Part shown: positions 3,480 through 32,458 of the stretch, piece after piece
Layout: every line of letters begins with the position of its first letter
Position numbering within the stretch: position 1 is the first letter of the stretch
Virus record (IMG/VR): IMGVR_UViG_3300017782_000099
Coordinates: 1-32,881 of that record
From: a virus
Strand: one strand, 5' to 3'
Length of the DNA: 32,881 nt
The notes under the pieces: generated by a model
What the model saw: only the letters and a program-made list of their open reading frames with translations
Databases searched by the model: none
Told to the model about the DNA's origin: nothing
Made by a program: the position numbers and the translations under genes

Positions 3480-6400
3480 TTATTTAATCCTTCCGGTTGC
3501 TATTACAAACGTATCTTCTACTTCTAGTATACCGCCTGCCCCGCCTGTCGCATCAGCGATGTTTGCGTTAGGCCATGTAATTTGAATTACTGCCTCTTCA
3601 TCGGTTCCGCCTACACCTGTAATTTCACCGTAGACATCAGGGTTTCCTGACCCAGGTGAAAATCCATTATGAGCGTTTAAACCAAGATCTTTTGGTTTTA
3701 CTTTCCTACCTACAGACATATATTTATAATCCCGAACAATGACAGTGTAAATTACATCGCCACCACTTTCGCTCCACACACCAGGATTACCTGCACCGTT
3801 TACAATCATTGCAGCATCAACCGAAGTAGTTATCGATGCAGAGTATCCTAGTCCGATATGATCTGGGTCACCTGCTGTTGATGCAAATCCTTTTGATGCA
3901 TTACGATGGTAAATTGTGTTAGTAGGATCTTTCATATAATCAACTGTGTACGGTTGACCTGCAAGTTTAATCTTTCGAACAGTATCAGCAGGAATCGTGT
4001 ATTGGAATCCGCCTTCGCTTGGCAGATTATCGCTTTCTGCTCTATCCTCAAATCCTAAGAATACATTTCTTGTTAATGTATGATTTGTTCCTGTAGCAAG
4101 ATTTTGTTCACCTGTACCACTGCCGTTTGTGAATGTGACTTTACCTGTAGCTGCAGGACCATTCTGTGCATCAACCCTACTAGTATATAATGAAACAGTA
4201 TCGCTGTCAACTTTGTATATGAAATATGTTTCACCACTAGTTAAAAGATTGGGTGCAGTGTCATTCGAAGGAGATACGCCTCCATTTGAATTATATATAA
4301 CAGGGTCTCCTGTTTCAAACTTATGACCAGAACTCAATTCGCTTACACCCATTGAAGCATATGGTGCCATATCAACAGGCAAAGGATTTGCTGCAGTAAA
4401 CGTATCACCCACTCCAGGATTACCCGAGAAAGTAGGACTAGATGCCAAGGCATTAATTAATGTTTGATTTACAGGATTTTGTTCTATTCTGTATTCTCTT
4501 CCGCCAACAATTGCATCAGCAAATATTAGTACAGATGTTTGATTCAAGTTAATTGCATTATTAGCAAAATCAAAAGATGTATCTAGTGTTGCATCAAATG
4601 ATGATGTGACAATTCGTTGTGACATACCCAATGGAGGTTGTAAATCGTCAATCCAAACTGACTCTTCTCCGCCTACTGGTTTCTTGATTGCAAATATTTT
4701 ATACTCAGGTCCTGAACCTAAGTTAAAGTTTTCACCGTTTTCCTGATATTTGTGCTTATCAGAATCAAATGATGCAGGGCCACCTGCTTGCAAACTTGAT
4801 GATGTAAGATCAATATTGATTAAATCATACTCTGAATTGTAAGAATCAGGTGTAGGTAAAAACTCTCCTGACGGGCCAGTGATAACATTTGGAGATGAAA
4901 TCATGAACTTTGACCCAAATACAACCAATCCTGATCCACAGTTTGCGATAATATTACCTTCAATCGCTGCTTTATCAGTAAGTGATACATCAACACTTCC
5001 TTTCGAGAAGTTCTCAAATCTATTTGATGATACAAATGTGTTTGATCCACCGTCAGCAATCAACGGTGCATATACGTGACGATCTGTGATACCTGAATCT
5101 AGGAACTCTGATGCAACAATTTTAAGGTTAATTGGGTCAGGCGCATACACACCACCACCAATAGGTTTAGAGAGACGAACTTTATCGACAAGTATGCTAT
5201 TGTTAAATTGTCCAAAATTAATACAATAGTTTACAGTAGCATCACTAGTATCATCGAATTGAATTGAGTTAATCGAATTTCCATCAACATCAAATCCGAC
5301 AAAACTGGTATTTAGCAATCGAAGTCCTGCTGACTCAATCATCGCTGAAGAGGATGATGCTGCTGAACCTCCCCAACCTGACCAAGGCAATCTTGTCAAC
5401 TTAGTATTATATGCATACCCAGCAATACTAAATGAATTTGGAATTGCTAATTTTGATATAATATATGTTTTTGGATTGAATTGAATTGCCTTACGACCAC
5501 TCTGTGAATTTGTATTAATTGCAGATTGTATTAAACTAGTATCATTATGTGATACCCACACACCTGCACTTTCACCTGCATCCATGATTATGTTTCCTGA
5601 CAATTCAACATCAATATATGTGCTGAGTGAAGGATTTACAACATTCTCGTATGTGATTCCTTGAATAACTGCATCAACCCATCCTCGTCCACCATTAGCG
5701 GCAGATGGCACTTCAGATGGTTTAAAGTGGACAGTTTTTTCTGGGATGTATGTATTATCTTCTTGATTTTTTCCACTGTGTGTCAATATATCATCAGTGT
5801 AATAATCAATCCAATTGTTCTGTTTTAATTCTTTTGGTCCTAAAACAGCAACCAATTTTGGTTCACCTTTAAGTTGTTCTTCTGTAGTATTTACTTGTGC
5901 TATTCGTCTGTAAATACATATTCCCCGACCAGGAGTTATTCCTGATAGTGTTGAACCCGTGTCGTTATATGTGAATTGCAATTTAACAAAGTTTTCAACG
6001 CTAAAATCTTGTAATAATCTTTGTTGATTATTAGATAGATATTGTGGCACTTCCAGTGCAGGAACTTCTGAACCACTTGGTATACTAATATTGGTTGATT
6101 GTTCAGCGGTAGGAGGAGTCACTTTACCTGTGTTCAAATCCCATTCGCAAATGCTATATGTGAGTTTTTGGAAAGGTGCATCGATTTGAACAGGAGTTAA
6201 TGTGTGACTTGCACCCGATCCCGTATTTATAGTTGCAGCTGCAGAATCAGTTGTCGCTGCTTTTAATTGTAAAGTATCAGTTTGAGCGTTGAACACATAA
6301 TACGTAGTGCCACTAACTAAACCTATATCAGTTGTTGAACCACCTGAATTGTATATTACAGGTTCGTTTTCAACTAACCCATGTGCTGTAATAGTGATTG

Positions 6401-7268
6401 TGTTTCCTGCATCATTAATATCAGTTGCAGCATTAAACGTAGGTGTGTTGCCGCCAACTTCAGCATCGGTGAAGGTATTAAATCCTTCTGTTTGAATAGA
6501 AAATGCTGCTTGATTAGGCAAAACTGCTTGCGTTTCTGCTGAATCAGCACCAAATATACGAATATTTTTTCCTACTTGATATGAATCAAACCTTGCACCC
6601 TGTTCACGTTTAGTATAATCAGCGCCAACACCGGGTATTTGCCCTTCTGTTTTTATTCTAATTGTGTTTGTTTCATTTGATGGATTAACTATAGGTGCAT
6701 AACCAACAGTATCAAAGAAACTGTCTATCACATTACCTTCATCAAATGTTACATTAAGTTTATTAAAATATTTTGCAAAGTTTTGATCAAAAAATGCTTC
6801 TACAAGAGAATCATTATAGAATTTATTAGTACCTTCATTTATGTTAGTTGTCGTAATAGGTACAGGAGCAGCAGAGTATTCACCATTTTCTTTCTTATGA
6901 TATACAAGTTTATTGTCCTGAGGTCTAATTCTAATAAATCCGCCTGTACCTCCACCCTCTTCTAATGCATTATCTAAATCATGTATATCAGTCGGTATTG
7001 TTGGCTTACCAGTTACATTCGCCCATGCTTGATAAAAACTTCCGTGTTGACCGTCAAGAAGATCTGCATTCAATCCTGCATTTGAAGCATTAAGCCCAGT
7101 TTTTAAATAATTGATTTGTGCCGGGGTTGTCGCTGATTCCAGAATATTTGTTTTAAGAGTACCATAAGTAATCTTTGCTGATGTCCCAACAGAGTCAACA
7201 GTTACGGCAAAAACATCCTGATCATTCAGTCCTGTAATTGCAGTTAAGTCAGTAAATTTTATTGCCAT
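3480..7268 (-). CDS. Tail spike/fibre protein with predicted beta-helix core
   Basis: A 1262-residue protein. The N-terminus carries the fibre-type motif NADLLDGQHGSFYQ (about 67-80), found in many phage fibres. Residues about 530-800 look like a right-handed beta-helix of the pectate-lyase type: a start like WVDAVIQ, then short strand-turn repeats rich in N, G and D (SNRFENF, EGNIIANCGSGL). Two copies of a module with the pattern HGL..nePVIYNSGG...sGtTYyV...dT..L lie at about 289-360 and 979-1065; a third relative is in the gp7-type protein. By family logic this is a trimeric receptor-binding or polysaccharide-degrading spike, but no catalytic acids can be assigned by eye. The start is supported by AGGAAAGG about 9 bases upstream and a late promoter box 33 bases upstream. 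Enzymatic activity is inference. Confidence 0.85.
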   Translation of the reverse strand: MAIKFTDLTAITGLNDQDVFAVTVDSVGTSAKITYGTLKTNILESATTPAQINYLKTGLNASNAGLNADLLDGQHGSFYQAWANVTGKPTIPTDIHDLDNALEEGGGTGGFIRIRPQDNKLVYHKKENGEYSAAPVPITTTNINEGTNKFYNDSLVEAFFDQNFAKYFNKLNVTFDEGNVIDSFFDTVGYAPIVNPSNETNTIRIKTEGQIPGVGADYTKREQGARFDSYQVGKNIRIFGADSAETQAVLPNQAAFSIQTEGFNTFTDAEVGGNTPTFNAATDINDAGNTITITAHGLVENEPVIYNSGGSTTDIGLVSGTTYYVFNAQTDTLQLKAATTDSAAATINTGSGASHTLTPVQIDAPFQKLTYSICEWDLNTGKVTPPTAEQSTNISIPSGSEVPALEVPQYLSNNQQRLLQDFSVENFVKLQFTYNDTGSTLSGITPGRGICIYRRIAQVNTTEEQLKGEPKLVAVLGPKELKQNNWIDYYTDDILTHSGKNQEDNTYIPEKTVHFKPSEVPSAANGGRGWVDAVIQGITYENVVNPSLSTYIDVELSGNIIMDAGESAGVWVSHNDTSLIQSAINTNSQSGRKAIQFNPKTYIISKLAIPNSFSIAGYAYNTKLTRLPWSGWGGSAASSSSAMIESAGLRLLNTSFVGFDVDGNSINSIQFDDTSDATVNYCINFGQFNNSILVDKVRLSKPIGGGVYAPDPINLKIVASEFLDSGITDRHVYAPLIADGGSNTFVSSNRFENFSKGSVDVSLTDKAAIEGNIIANCGSGLVVFGSKFMISSPNVITGPSGEFLPTPDSYNSEYDLINIDLTSSSLQAGGPASFDSDKHKYQENGENFNLGSGPEYKIFAIKKPVGGEESVWIDDLQPPLGMSQRIVTSSFDATLDTSFDFANNAINLNQTSVLIFADAIVGGREYRIEQNPVNQTLINALASSPTFSGNPGVGDTFTAANPLPVDMAPYASMGVSELSSGHKFETGDPVIYNSNGGVSPSNDTAPNLLTSGETYFIYKVDSDTVSLYTSRVDAQNGPAATGKVTFTNGSGTGEQNLATGTNHTLTRNVFLGFEDRAESDNLPSEGGFQYTIPADTVRKIKLAGQPYTVDYMKDPTNTIYHRNASKGFASTAGDPDHIGLGYSASITTSVDAAMIVNGAGNPGVWSESGGDVIYTVIVRDYKYMSVGRKVKPKDLGLNAHNGFSPGSGNPDVYGEITGVGGTDEEAVIQITWPNANIADATGGAGGILEVEDTFVIATGRIK

Positions 7269-17169: not shown

Positions 17170-19038
17170 TTAAAAGTCGAAAATAAGTTTTACTTTTTCT
17201 TTAGATTCTTTGGTTCTCGTAATAGGTGCAAAATCAACAAAATGTAACACCTCACCAGTGTAAGGTTGATATGTTTGTTGTACAACAGTATTTATAGATG
17301 CATCAGCACCCGAAGTAATAGTTGATGCAAAAGTAGTTGTCGGCGATTGCTCAGTTTCTTTGATTTGAACAACATTTCCACCTACACTAGTGAACACAGA
17401 ACTTGTTGCCGTAACTGTATCCACTAAATAAATGTCAGTTCTGTCATCAATACCATTGCCTAATATATCTAACTTTTTAATTTCATGAATTGTACCTGAA
17501 ACTGTTTCACCTGATATTGTTTGACTGACGTAATATCCCGGTTGGGCTTGCGAATCTGACAGATCTGAACTAAACCGCAAAACAACCCTATTATCAAATG
17601 TGTCAGGAGACTCCATCACTTGCCCACCATCAATAAGCGAAGTAGTGACTGGTTGAATTATATCACCGACACCATATACAACACCTGATGTCCCTGCAAT
17701 ATTATTCCATGCTGCCTGATCATTAGTGACACCGAGATTTGTTATTTTGTATTTTTCGCCTGGGATCATCGAAGTAGTTAAATTTAAAGTTTCGAAATGA
17801 GGATTCTTAATTATCCCAACTTTAGTGTATGTATTAGAATCAGGCGTATTTGTTGTTATATCAGAAACAAATGTTGTTAATGTTTCTATACGACTCATAA
17901 ACAATTCATGCACAGGATTTGAACCGTGTCCACCTGCAGGTGAATGCACAACACGAAGCTCTGAATTTTCCAGAACAACATCTGATACTGGCCCAGGTTT
18001 CATCAAATGTGCAGATGCAAAATTGTATCCATCACCTTTGTTTTTAAAGTTTATGTCCACTAAATTGCCTGATGAATTTATAACCCCATATGCAACTGCT
18101 TGTTCTGTGGAACCTGCTGATGAATCTGGTACACTTATTTTTACTTTAGGCACAATTTCAACAGCCTCTCCTGCAGTCGCTGAAAGTAAATTCGTTGAAA
18201 TAGTCAAAACAATTTCTTTTGAACTCTGTGAACTCTGATTAAATTCACTAGAGATAATATCATAAACATTGCCGCCTTCAGTCCCATCAGGGAATCTCAA
18301 ATACATACCTTTGTATTGATCAAGAGATGTTTTAACGTCCTTTGCACATGACACGATTACTTGATACTTCGGCGGATTAGCACTTAGCAATTGTGGCGCA
18401 GCAGCGATGACACCCGATGACGGGTTATCATTACCTATAACGTACCCGCTATATGCTCCTGCAGGAGACGTCTCTATTAAAATGTCACTTATCCCTTGTT
18501 TTGAATTATCAACAATGTTATCATCTTGAATATAAGGCAACAATTGAGATGTGCCAAATAGGATATATTGCGCAGGAGGAACAGTGAATAATAGTTTCCA
18601 CACATACCCATCAGTTTGTGTTGTTTCGAATAATGAATCAAGGTTTGCTGTTGAAGGATTTGTCGTTGACGGTGATCCGTTATTGTTCCTTACACACTTT
18701 AAAACTTTATATGATGCTTCATTAATAGTGCCATCAAGAACAGTCACATAGAAATTCTTTGTACTCATATCTTGTGTATCATCAAATGCATCATATACTG
18801 TGCCTGATGACCAAGGATTGATGGGAAACATATATCTTACATCATCGCTTGTTATCTTATTGCCGAATATAACTTTACGCTCAAAATCTCTTATATCGCT
18901 TTGAGAGTTAGAAATACTATTGCCTGCACTATTCGATGATGCCATTATATAATAGTCATTTTTAGCGGCGTCAGAAAACGAATCAACAAAATCATTCGTT
19001 GATTCGACTCTAAAACTTTCAGTTACAACCTTTGCCAT
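17170..19038 (-). CDS. 8: Baseplate wedge protein gp8
   Basis: A 622-residue protein with features of the gp8 family in its N-terminal quarter: FPINPWSSGTVYDAFDDT at about 71-88 and DGYVWKLLFTVPP at about 143-155. In T4, gp8 is a dimeric wedge protein that joins gp10/gp7 to gp6. T4 gp8 has 334 residues, so this one is nearly twice as long; marine T4-like phages commonly carry long versions (recollection, not a search). The gene order gp25-gp6-gp7-gp8 supports the call. Its ATG lies 25 bases downstream of a late promoter box and has AGGAAAA before it. The extra C-terminal half (about 330-622) is beta-rich and of unknown role. Confidence 0.85.
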   Translation of the reverse strand: MAKVVTESFRVESTNDFVDSFSDAAKNDYYIMASSNSAGNSISNSQSDIRDFERKVIFGNKITSDDVRYMFPINPWSSGTVYDAFDDTQDMSTKNFYVTVLDGTINEASYKVLKCVRNNNGSPSTTNPSTANLDSLFETTQTDGYVWKLLFTVPPAQYILFGTSQLLPYIQDDNIVDNSKQGISDILIETSPAGAYSGYVIGNDNPSSGVIAAAPQLLSANPPKYQVIVSCAKDVKTSLDQYKGMYLRFPDGTEGGNVYDIISSEFNQSSQSSKEIVLTISTNLLSATAGEAVEIVPKVKISVPDSSAGSTEQAVAYGVINSSGNLVDINFKNKGDGYNFASAHLMKPGPVSDVVLENSELRVVHSPAGGHGSNPVHELFMSRIETLTTFVSDITTNTPDSNTYTKVGIIKNPHFETLNLTTSMIPGEKYKITNLGVTNDQAAWNNIAGTSGVVYGVGDIIQPVTTSLIDGGQVMESPDTFDNRVVLRFSSDLSDSQAQPGYYVSQTISGETVSGTIHEIKKLDILGNGIDDRTDIYLVDTVTATSSVFTSVGGNVVQIKETEQSPTTTFASTITSGADASINTVVQQTYQPYTGEVLHFVDFAPITRTKESKEKVKLIFDF

Positions 19039-30635: not shown

Positions 30636-31955
30636 TTACCTATCGACTGGAGGATTCGCAAGGAATTGTGTTTTGGATGGATATTGATTTCGAAGATCTT
30701 GATTGTTTGAACTTAATTTTTTACCAGCGGCGTTGTAGAAATCATAAGTCGTTCGACCTCTTGAGTTACTTCCGGAGGCGACTTTATACGCAACTGCTCT
30801 ATCATTTACATCTCCTTCACCCGTTGTTGCTCCTGTGTCTTGCGCACCGTTTTCTTCAACAGGATCTGGTTGTTGATCACCGCTTGGATCATCTTGAAGA
30901 GCAGTTTTAATCTCGGACACTGATTGAGTATCGGAACCTGCATCATCAGATGGATCTTTTGTTGCTTCATCTGTGCCTAAGTTACCCGGCAACCCTTCTC
31001 TATAGTCAGCACGAGTACGAATTTCGCTTTCTGTTGTGTTCATCGAGCAACGAATAACAGCAGCGTTGCCTCCTTTGTTTAGAACAACACCACTACCACC
31101 TGCAGTATAATCAACATTAAATTGATTCGCCATCAAAAATTTATTAGTTCGGAACACATAATTCATTCCGCCAGAAACGCCAACTAATTTTATTTGCATC
31201 AATGCAGGATATGTTAGCAAACCTCTGCTGATTGTTCTCGAAAGAGTTTTTGAATCAAGACCTTTCAATGGAGATTTGTAGTCAGGATGAATAAAATAAT
31301 TTATTGTTCTGATAATATCATCTAATCTTTTTTGATCTTCAGCATTTTTTGGCGAGAACAACCATTCAAAGTTTTGAATTTTTAGATCAACGCCATCGAA
31401 TATAAGCGTTGTTTGATTGTTTAGTGCGGATCCTGCTGATGCTGATATTGCTTGACCTATTTGTGGTGCTATCTTTCCTGCGAGCGCTTTAGTAATGAAT
31501 ACTGTTGCATCAGCACCTGCTGCGATTCCACCTGCAAATGCTTCACTAAAAAACTCTCCTAACTTTGTTTTATCGGCAGTCGCAAGATCTGCTTTAATAT
31601 TTGCACCTGCTTCACCGCCAACTGCACCACCTAATATATCAGATGTTAATGATCCTAGTATACCTAACTGTGATCCTGCAACATTAAGTCGAGACGATTC
31701 CATTAAATTTTGAGGTAAAGGCATTGCAATAGAGCACTTAGGTCCATATTTTGCCTTTCCTGTAGCAGCAGCACTGTATTCATACTCATAAAATTTTATG
31801 ATCATTTGGTGCGGAGGCATTACACCTGGATAATTTAATTGAACTAAGGCGTCTTCGCTTTGACCTGATGCTATTGTTTCACTAACATTTTTAGTGATAT
31901 TAGAGACTGCACTGTCTGCAACACCTTTAATCGCTTTTGTTATTGGTTCTGCCAT
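30636..31955 (-). CDS. 48: Tail-tube cap/initiator protein (gp48/gp54-like) with extra C-terminal region
   Basis: A 439-residue protein, longer than T4 gp48 (364) or gp54 (320). Residues about 38-95 (QLNYPGVMPPHQMIIKFYEY, then SIAMPLPQNL) and about 183-310 (NFEWLFSPKNAEDQKRLDDI, then GMNYVFRTNKFLMANQFNVDY) have the tube-like beta fold with the FxW...P..aed...i...I pattern seen in gp48. Between them is an alanine- and glycine-rich stretch. The last 115 residues are an acidic, Q/D/E-rich linker and a small terminal segment (TTYDFYNAAGKKLSSN) not expected in gp48. In T4 these proteins cap the baseplate and start tube polymerisation. Which of the two T4 proteins it matches is uncertain. It is first in the leftward operon, behind a late promoter box and AGGAC. 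Confidence 0.75.
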   Translation of the reverse strand: MAEPITKAIKGVADSAVSNITKNVSETIASGQSEDALVQLNYPGVMPPHQMIIKFYEYEYSAAATGKAKYGPKCSIAMPLPQNLMESSRLNVAGSQLGILGSLTSDILGGAVGGEAGANIKADLATADKTKLGEFFSEAFAGGIAAGADATVFITKALAGKIAPQIGQAISASAGSALNNQTTLIFDGVDLKIQNFEWLFSPKNAEDQKRLDDIIRTINYFIHPDYKSPLKGLDSKTLSRTISRGLLTYPALMQIKLVGVSGGMNYVFRTNKFLMANQFNVDYTAGGSGVVLNKGGNAAVIRCSMNTTESEIRTRADYREGLPGNLGTDEATKDPSDDAGSDTQSVSEIKTALQDDPSGDQQPDPVEENGAQDTGATTGEGDVNDRAVAYKVASGSNSRGRTTYDFYNAAGKKLSSNNQDLRNQYPSKTQFLANPPVDR

Positions 31956-31969
31956 TTACTTTTGTCCTG

Positions 31970-31977
31970 TATAAATA
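31970..31977 (+). promoter_or_regulatory. 4: Rightward T4-type late promoter box (TATAAATA)
   Basis: An exact TATAAATA on the plus strand, 34 bases before the gene 4 ATG, in the 56-base gap between divergent gene sets. It would drive gene 4 and the SNase gene. It faces the leftward box at 31994-32001, so each box lies in the predicted 5' leader of the other transcript. Confidence 0.7.
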
Positions 31978-31978
31978 C

Positions 31979-31996
31979 ATAAAGTGATAACTTTAT
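31979..31996. repeat. Perfect inverted repeat between the two facing promoter boxes
   Basis: Two 7-base arms, ATAAAGT (31979-31985) and ACTTTAT (31990-31996), are perfect inverted repeats around the 4-base centre GATA. With one mismatch the symmetry extends three more pairs outward into both TATAAATA boxes. It could be an operator-like dyad, a hairpin in either leader RNA, or a by-product of the two facing boxes. Confidence 0.7.
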
Positions 31997-32001
31997 TTAT
32001 A
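31994..32001 (-). promoter_or_regulatory. 48: Leftward T4-type late promoter box (TATAAATA)
   Basis: An exact TATAAATA on the minus strand, 38 bases before the ATG of the tail-tube cap gene. It would be the first promoter of the leftward hub operon (tube cap, gp53, gp27-like, gp5-like, hub-region protein). Confidence 0.72.
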
Positions 32002-32015
32002 TGAGCGACTTATGA
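32001..32015 (+). other. Four-codon upstream reading frame overlapping the gene 4 start
   Basis: ATG AGC GAC TTA TGA begins 11 bases before the gene 4 ATG and its TGA overlaps that ATG (ATGA). Gene 4 lacks a clear Shine-Dalgarno sequence, so this could couple translation to its start. It could equally be chance in a short AT-rich leader. Confidence 0.3.
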
Positions 32016-32458
32016 CTTACCAAGGAAAATTTAAACCTCGCAACCCACAAAAATATCGAGGCGACTCGACAAATATTATTTATCGTAGTGGTTGGGAATT
32101 AAAATTGATGTCTTATTTAGATAAGCATCCTGGCGTATTGTTATGGAATAGTGAAGAAATTGTTATTCCGTATCGTTCACCTATTGACGGAAAGATGCAT
32201 AGATATTTTCCTGATTTTTATGTTGAGATGATAAATAAAGATAACAAGAAAGAAAAAATTTTAATAGAAGTGAAACCAAAATATCAATGCTCGCCTCCTG
32301 TTGCAAAAAAATCAGGAAGCAAACCAACAAAGCGTTACATCCGTGAAGTAAAGGATTGGGGTATCAATAGCGCAAAGTGGAAAGCAGCACAAGAATATTG
32401 TATTGATAGAGGGTATCGCTTTCAAATAATGCACGAGGACCATCTGGGAATAAAATAA
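32012..32458 (+). CDS. 4: Head completion protein gp4 (TnsA-like PD-(D/E)XK nuclease fold)
   Basis: A 148-residue protein, matching T4 gp4 (about 150). It shows the TnsA-N-like nuclease core: YRSGWELKLMSYLDKHP with E29, HRYFPDFYVEM with D68, and ILIEVKPK with E86 and K88, the expected E...D...ExK active-site set. In T4-like phages gp4 acts on the filled head, with gp2, to make it competent for tail joining; the nuclease fold suggests trimming of DNA ends, which is less well established. It is transcribed away from the tail operon and is followed after one base by the SNase gene, so the two are probably co-expressed late. Confidence 0.93.
   Translation: MTYQGKFKPRNPQKYRGDSTNIIYRSGWELKLMSYLDKHPGVLLWNSEEIVIPYRSPIDGKMHRYFPDFYVEMINKDNKKEKILIEVKPKYQCSPPVAKKSGSKPTKRYIREVKDWGINSAKWKAAQEYCIDRGYRFQIMHEDHLGIK

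Follow-up and report, generated by a model that had tools for sequence, protein, structure and literature searches.

Facing late promoter boxes in the compact gap that separates gene 4 from a baseplate gene in a T4-superfamily phage

Face-to-face promoters that can interfere with one another occur in the temperate switch of phage 186 (pR/pL); in temperate-switch pairs the starts lie tens of base pairs apart, the antisense overlap is long, and repressors decide lysogeny. Late promoter boxes are themselves classical, and in T4, where late promoters depend on gp55, gp33, and gp45, they precede genes 4 and 53. A promoter of this type has its box a short way upstream of a late gene and lacks a conserved -35 element. 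The Grainger group has described opposed promoters of another kind in E. coli and Salmonella, with starts within 25 bp, at which one bound polymerase blocks the other; these bidirectional promoters have a single pseudo-symmetric -10 element between outward-pointing starts that are typically 18 bp apart (PMC12825309, PMC10268837).

The divergent gap described here lies near one end of a window of 32,881 nucleotides (positions 1 to 32,881 of IMG/VR virus record IMGVR_UViG_3300017782_000099, the whole stretch of DNA that was analysed). It shares with T4 genes 4/53 the 8-bp box, a predicted leader of 20-30 nt, and the facing order of gene 4 and a baseplate gene. It differs from the T4 53|4 junction in its spacer (16 bp against 7), in its predicted 5' ends (which overlap by 6 nt, whereas those of T4 are 3 bp apart), and in the partner gene (gp48 rather than gp53). 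Like the E. coli and Salmonella promoters, it has two opposed promoters predicted to be close enough for a polymerase bound at one to block the other. Unlike them, it has two separate boxes on the outside with the starts between, so that instead of outward starts 7-25 bp apart over overlapping -10 elements we predict transcripts that overlap by 6 nt. By its letters alone the gap is a face-to-face pair with overlapping transcripts (predicted starts 31983 and 31988), but unlike pR/pL it would comprise two late promoters of the same class, with no adjoining repressor gene. We found no account of the facing pair in the literature searched, which is weak evidence given its incomplete coverage of T4 late transcription.

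The 56-bp gap (31956-32011) reads TTACTTTTGTCCTGTATAAATACATAAAGTGATAACTTTATTTATATGAGCGACTT, and its features are collected in Table 1. The preliminary description had two TATAAATA boxes facing each other here, 16 bases apart, and a letter-by-letter reading bears this out exactly: the plus-strand letters at 31994-32001 are TATTTATA, that is, TATAAATA on the minus strand. Both agree without mismatch with the 8-bp late box TATAAATA, for which variants such as CTAAATA are also accepted. The GAG ahead of gp4 is kept at the same place in many relatives, with other bases in the rest. The gp48-type gene is the first of a long minus-strand gene run, and the genes next after it have matches to a baseplate wedge subunit, to a tail protein, and to a hub/tail lysozyme family.

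Table 1. Features in and around the divergent gap (window coordinates)
Feature	Position	Strand	Remarks
Gp48-type baseplate tail tube cap	30636..31955	-	phrog_230, E = 9e-28
Likely Shine-Dalgarno of gp48	31965..31968	-	AGGA, 9 nt, ATG read directly; adjoins plus box
Late promoter box TATAAATA for gp4	31970..31977	+	Exact match; predicted +1 at 31983, 29-nt leader
Spacer, 16 bp	31978..31993		Both predicted start sites inside (31983, 31988)
Inverted repeat ATAAAGT-GATA-ACTTTAT	31979..31996		Perfect 7 bp; not conserved, probably chance
Late promoter box TATAAATA for gp48/baseplate operon	31994..32001	-	Exact match; predicted +1 at 31988, 33-nt leader
Possible weak Shine-Dalgarno of gp4	32003..32005	+	GAG, direct reading; adjoins minus box
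Gp4-type head closure protein	32012..32458	+	phrog_218, E = 2e-58

A single box is weak evidence here, because seven exact boxes were found in the window against 3.9 expected, a mild enrichment. That single boxes are so frequent in AT-rich DNA might suggest that the pair is a product of chance, but simulated 56-bp pieces rarely contained an exact facing pair: 26 of 200,000 (~1e-4) when drawn from the AT-rich composition of the gap itself, and 0 of 200,000 when drawn from that of the window. Exact conservation in 68 related loci already refutes chance, to which we give practically no credence. Elsewhere in the window, minus-strand exact boxes at 3721-3728 and 6224-6231 (inside the long minus-strand gene 3480-7268) and at 17289-17296 (inside 17170-19038) lie away from obvious gene starts.

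Conservation was assessed in IMG/VR loci fetched via gene 4. Two of the 80 loci (L010 and L053), whose DNA stops short of the junction, were set aside, leaving 78 with readable upstream DNA. Both boxes are present without mismatch in 68 of these, and none of the 78 has a pair with one or two mismatches. The ten loci without the exact pair belong to the most diverged, with gp4 identities of about 62% or below, and four of them keep a looser facing core, TAAATA/TATTTA. Counted from box to box, the 68 loci fall into 26 distinct cassettes, whose spacers measure 10, 15-16, and 19-22 bp; all 16 box positions are invariant, while the spacers differ. Wherever both flanks are readable, a gp48-like gene stands on the left and a gp4-like gene on the right. 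On this comparison of sequences the facing box pair is real and conserved. It had been set beforehand that loss of a box in relatives with this gene order would count against the proposal, and the boxes passed that test (68/78). The fixed spacing that had also been expected gave way, with spacers of 6-29 bp across junctions. A fixed helical phase was likewise rejected, as spacers of 6, 7, 10, 15-16, and 19-23 bp in conserved or cultured junctions exclude any one phase.

Gene 4 is divergent from a baseplate gene or another gene in most of the T4-superfamily records examined, its partner being gp53 in T4 and, in some cyanophages, a gene without a name. The 53|4 junction of T4 and RB10 reads TATAAATA-7-TATTTATA (77349-77371 in T4 coordinates), and the gene-4 junction of JS98 has the same boxes and spacer; AB-Navy1 has a facing pair with a spacer of 15. 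CTAAATA, a published late-promoter variant for Aeh1 (PMC1524935), replaces the standard box in phiM19 and phiN3 (CTAAATA-21-TATTTAG) and in S-PRM1 (CTAAATA-19-TATTTAG), and variant boxes are also seen at the junction in P-HM1, S-MbCM25, ACG-2014f, and Variovorax phage V45v66. Spacers among the cultured phages span 6-23 bp. There are exceptions: the Vibrio phage PVA8 (Schizotequatrovirus) has back-to-back boxes in the 66 bp that separate gene 4 from its neighbour (L330 1435-1500), and Salmonella phage GG32, Aeromonas phage phiA8-29, and Vibrio phage K388 have a single clear box. Facing putative late promoters at this junction are common to T4 and most relatives examined. In phiM19, where a set of structural genes was checked, late-type boxes within 70 bp upstream are limited to the facing pair and one box ahead of a gp25-like gene (L319 437-20465); with so few other late-type boxes, the pair may drive two long late operons.

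All 15 related contigs examined have a single copy of the exact facing pair, sited at the gene-4 junction, and the same is true of T4, RB10, and AB-Navy1; JS98 has a further copy at inh|uvsW. For the back-to-back control pattern, 27 records gave a single hit. We also scanned IMG/VR for both patterns without regard to genes, obtaining at least 120 matches each, so that the results are proportions and not totals: among the matches listed, 30/120 facing pairs lie within 80 bp of a gene-4 start, compared with 2/120 back-to-back pairs at a gene-4 start (Fisher p = 4e-8). Other junctions carry the same layout. T4 inh|segE keeps the facing pair seen at JS98 inh|uvsW (L355 42022-42043; T4 record 112021-112042), the homing endonuclease gene segE lying directly behind the apparent uvsW late promoter in T4. 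In phiA8-29 and Vibrio phage K388, facing late-type boxes (CTAAATA-10-TATTTAG) lie between the DNA end protector gene and the tail tube gene, gp2|gp19 (L367 1054-1077, L368 1089-1112).

In T4 the late box spans -13 to -6 from the start (PMC1524935), and the starts in the window are therefore predicted at 31983 (+) and 31988 (-), close to the preliminary placement of two facing starts near 31984-31988. The resulting distances to the late structural genes, 29 and 33 nt, fit a T4-type late promoter, and the predicted 5' ends of the two leaders overlap by 6 nt. Across 12 facing junctions with gaps of 33-56 bp and spacers of 6-23 bp, predicted leaders are 19-33 nt. At solitary T4 late promoters the median leader is 22 nt (19-23 for genes 9, 18, 20, 22, and 24), the facing T4 promoters at 53|4 and inh|segE have leaders of 21-23 nt, and the two other gene-proximal boxes of the window have leaders of 27 and 20 nt. 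The spacer equals the two leaders plus 10 minus the gap, and it follows from the leader-length rule that two normal late promoters in a gap of less than ~60 bp must face. The T4 26|51 junction is a borderline case of this geometry: TATTTATAAATA, a perfect palindrome, fuses two opposed late boxes (L355 46451-46462; T4 record 116450-116461) with leaders of just 12 and 16 nt, and is closer to the E. coli bidirectional type.

The gap very probably serves a T4-superfamily phage as a late promoter that works in both directions, two ordinary promoters packed together in little DNA. Each box would be an ordinary gp55-type late promoter with its predicted start at the usual 20-33 nt from its own start codon; with just 56 bp available, the boxes would have to face, each inside the leader of the opposite gene and beside that gene's ribosome-binding site. 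An open complex on one promoter would cover the other box, so that one template would fire in one direction at a time, and promoter clearance would then free the site. The sequences show directly that the boxes are present, conserved, and unique as a pair in the genome, and how the leaders are laid out; promoter activity, start sites, and mutual exclusion we infer. Compaction of two standard late promoters is the most economical reading of the layout, with exclusive firing a likely by-product and selection for exclusion possible. The literature examined yielded no mapped start site at the T4 53|4 junction.

The transcription bubble extends from -12 to +2 (PMC7892883), which predicts bubbles at 31971-31984 and 31987-32000 in the window, nearly abutting; in T4, with its spacer of 7, they would overlap. 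Upstream crosslinks of polymerase and clamp are reported near -39 (PMC2988020). With the bubbles abutting or overlapping and the polymerase body and clamp reaching upstream, simultaneous occupancy is not expected, and from this geometry polymerases at the two promoters should sterically exclude each other. The preliminary proposal that each polymerase would cross the opposite promoter agrees with this, a polymerase on one being predicted to lie on the other's box. Opposed E. coli polymerases compete only if at least one direction is strongly activated, and their competition lowers noise (PMC12825309). Exclusion might consequently not matter if firing is rare, while clamp activation of late promoters makes competition plausible. 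The junction offers a clear and conserved case, T4 included, in which two activated promoters would be expected to exclude each other, and promoter competition under sliding-clamp activation could be tested in a standard system. The spacer rule also predicts whether divergent late promoters face, overlap, or stand back to back, which should be useful in annotating uncultured phages; a pelagimyophage study reported that its own late-promoter prediction failed (PMC7029224).

Other accounts of the pair can be weighed against compaction. Each box stands directly upstream of the opposite gene's ribosome-binding site, as might be expected if only one were a promoter and the other an A/U-rich leader element kept for translation. 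That is unlikely, however, given that none of the 16 box positions varies across the 68 loci and that both leaders are as long as those of solitary late promoters. In addition, both boxes have become CTAAATA together in phiM19 and S-PRM1, a paired change that argues for one sigma factor reading both. Another question is whether the facing geometry was itself selected, competition fixing the ratio of head-closure to baseplate output or lowering its noise. The boxes are perfect across a long divergence, these genomes have almost no other facing pair, and exclusion seems unavoidable, to the point of overlapping predicted bubbles in T4; competition and lower noise have moreover been shown for opposed sigma70 promoters when activated (PMC12825309). 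Leader length alone nevertheless accounts for the layout, partner gene and spacer vary, the same layout is found at other late/late junctions, and PVA8 has a non-overlapping order, so that we regard such selection as a tentative and rather doubtful alternative to compaction.

The layout is not special to gene 4, since it is also seen at inh|uvsW, inh|segE, and gp2|gp19. The role first suggested for the pair, balancing head against hub output, is weakened by the varying partners (gp53 in T4, the unnamed cyanophage gene) and by the shared layout at inh|uvsW and gp2|gp19. More elaborate still, and improbable, would be a promoter hub of ancient origin, common to T4-type phages, where the DNA-tracking sliding clamp gp45 picks by its orientation which of the two mutually exclusive late promoters fires on each template, replication geometry thereby setting the ratio of head-closure to baseplate transcripts.

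The spacer also holds the inverted repeat that had been proposed to force mutually exclusive firing. The perfect 7-bp repeat around GATA is present (arms ATAAAGT at 31979-31985 and ACTTTAT at 31990-31996), with 3 bp of its right arm inside the minus box and an axis (31987.5) displaced by 2 bp from that of the two boxes (31985.5). Its conservation did not hold up: it is found only in L001-L004, near-identical loci that share the window's spacer letter for letter, and an equal dyad occurs in 6% of random gaps, or 11% when both boxes stay in place and the randomisation is confined to the spacer. A perfect repeat between two boxes invites reading as an operator or RNA hairpin enforcing exclusive firing; its absence outside four loci with an identical spacer and its chance-level frequency largely refute this, and neither predicted transcript holds both full arms. 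Such a role is very improbable, and the dyad looks incidental. The RNA-RNA contact proposed for the two leaders fared no better, as their 5' ends overlap by just 6 nt and 96% of mononucleotide shuffles give a stronger duplex than the two leaders do (-7.1 kcal/mol), so that their pairing is not unusual. Many relatives (L005-L065, e.g., L030 2946-2965) carry TTAGTCTA or TTAGACTAA in mid-spacer between differing flanks, a shared motif that may reflect common descent or a function in the initiation region.
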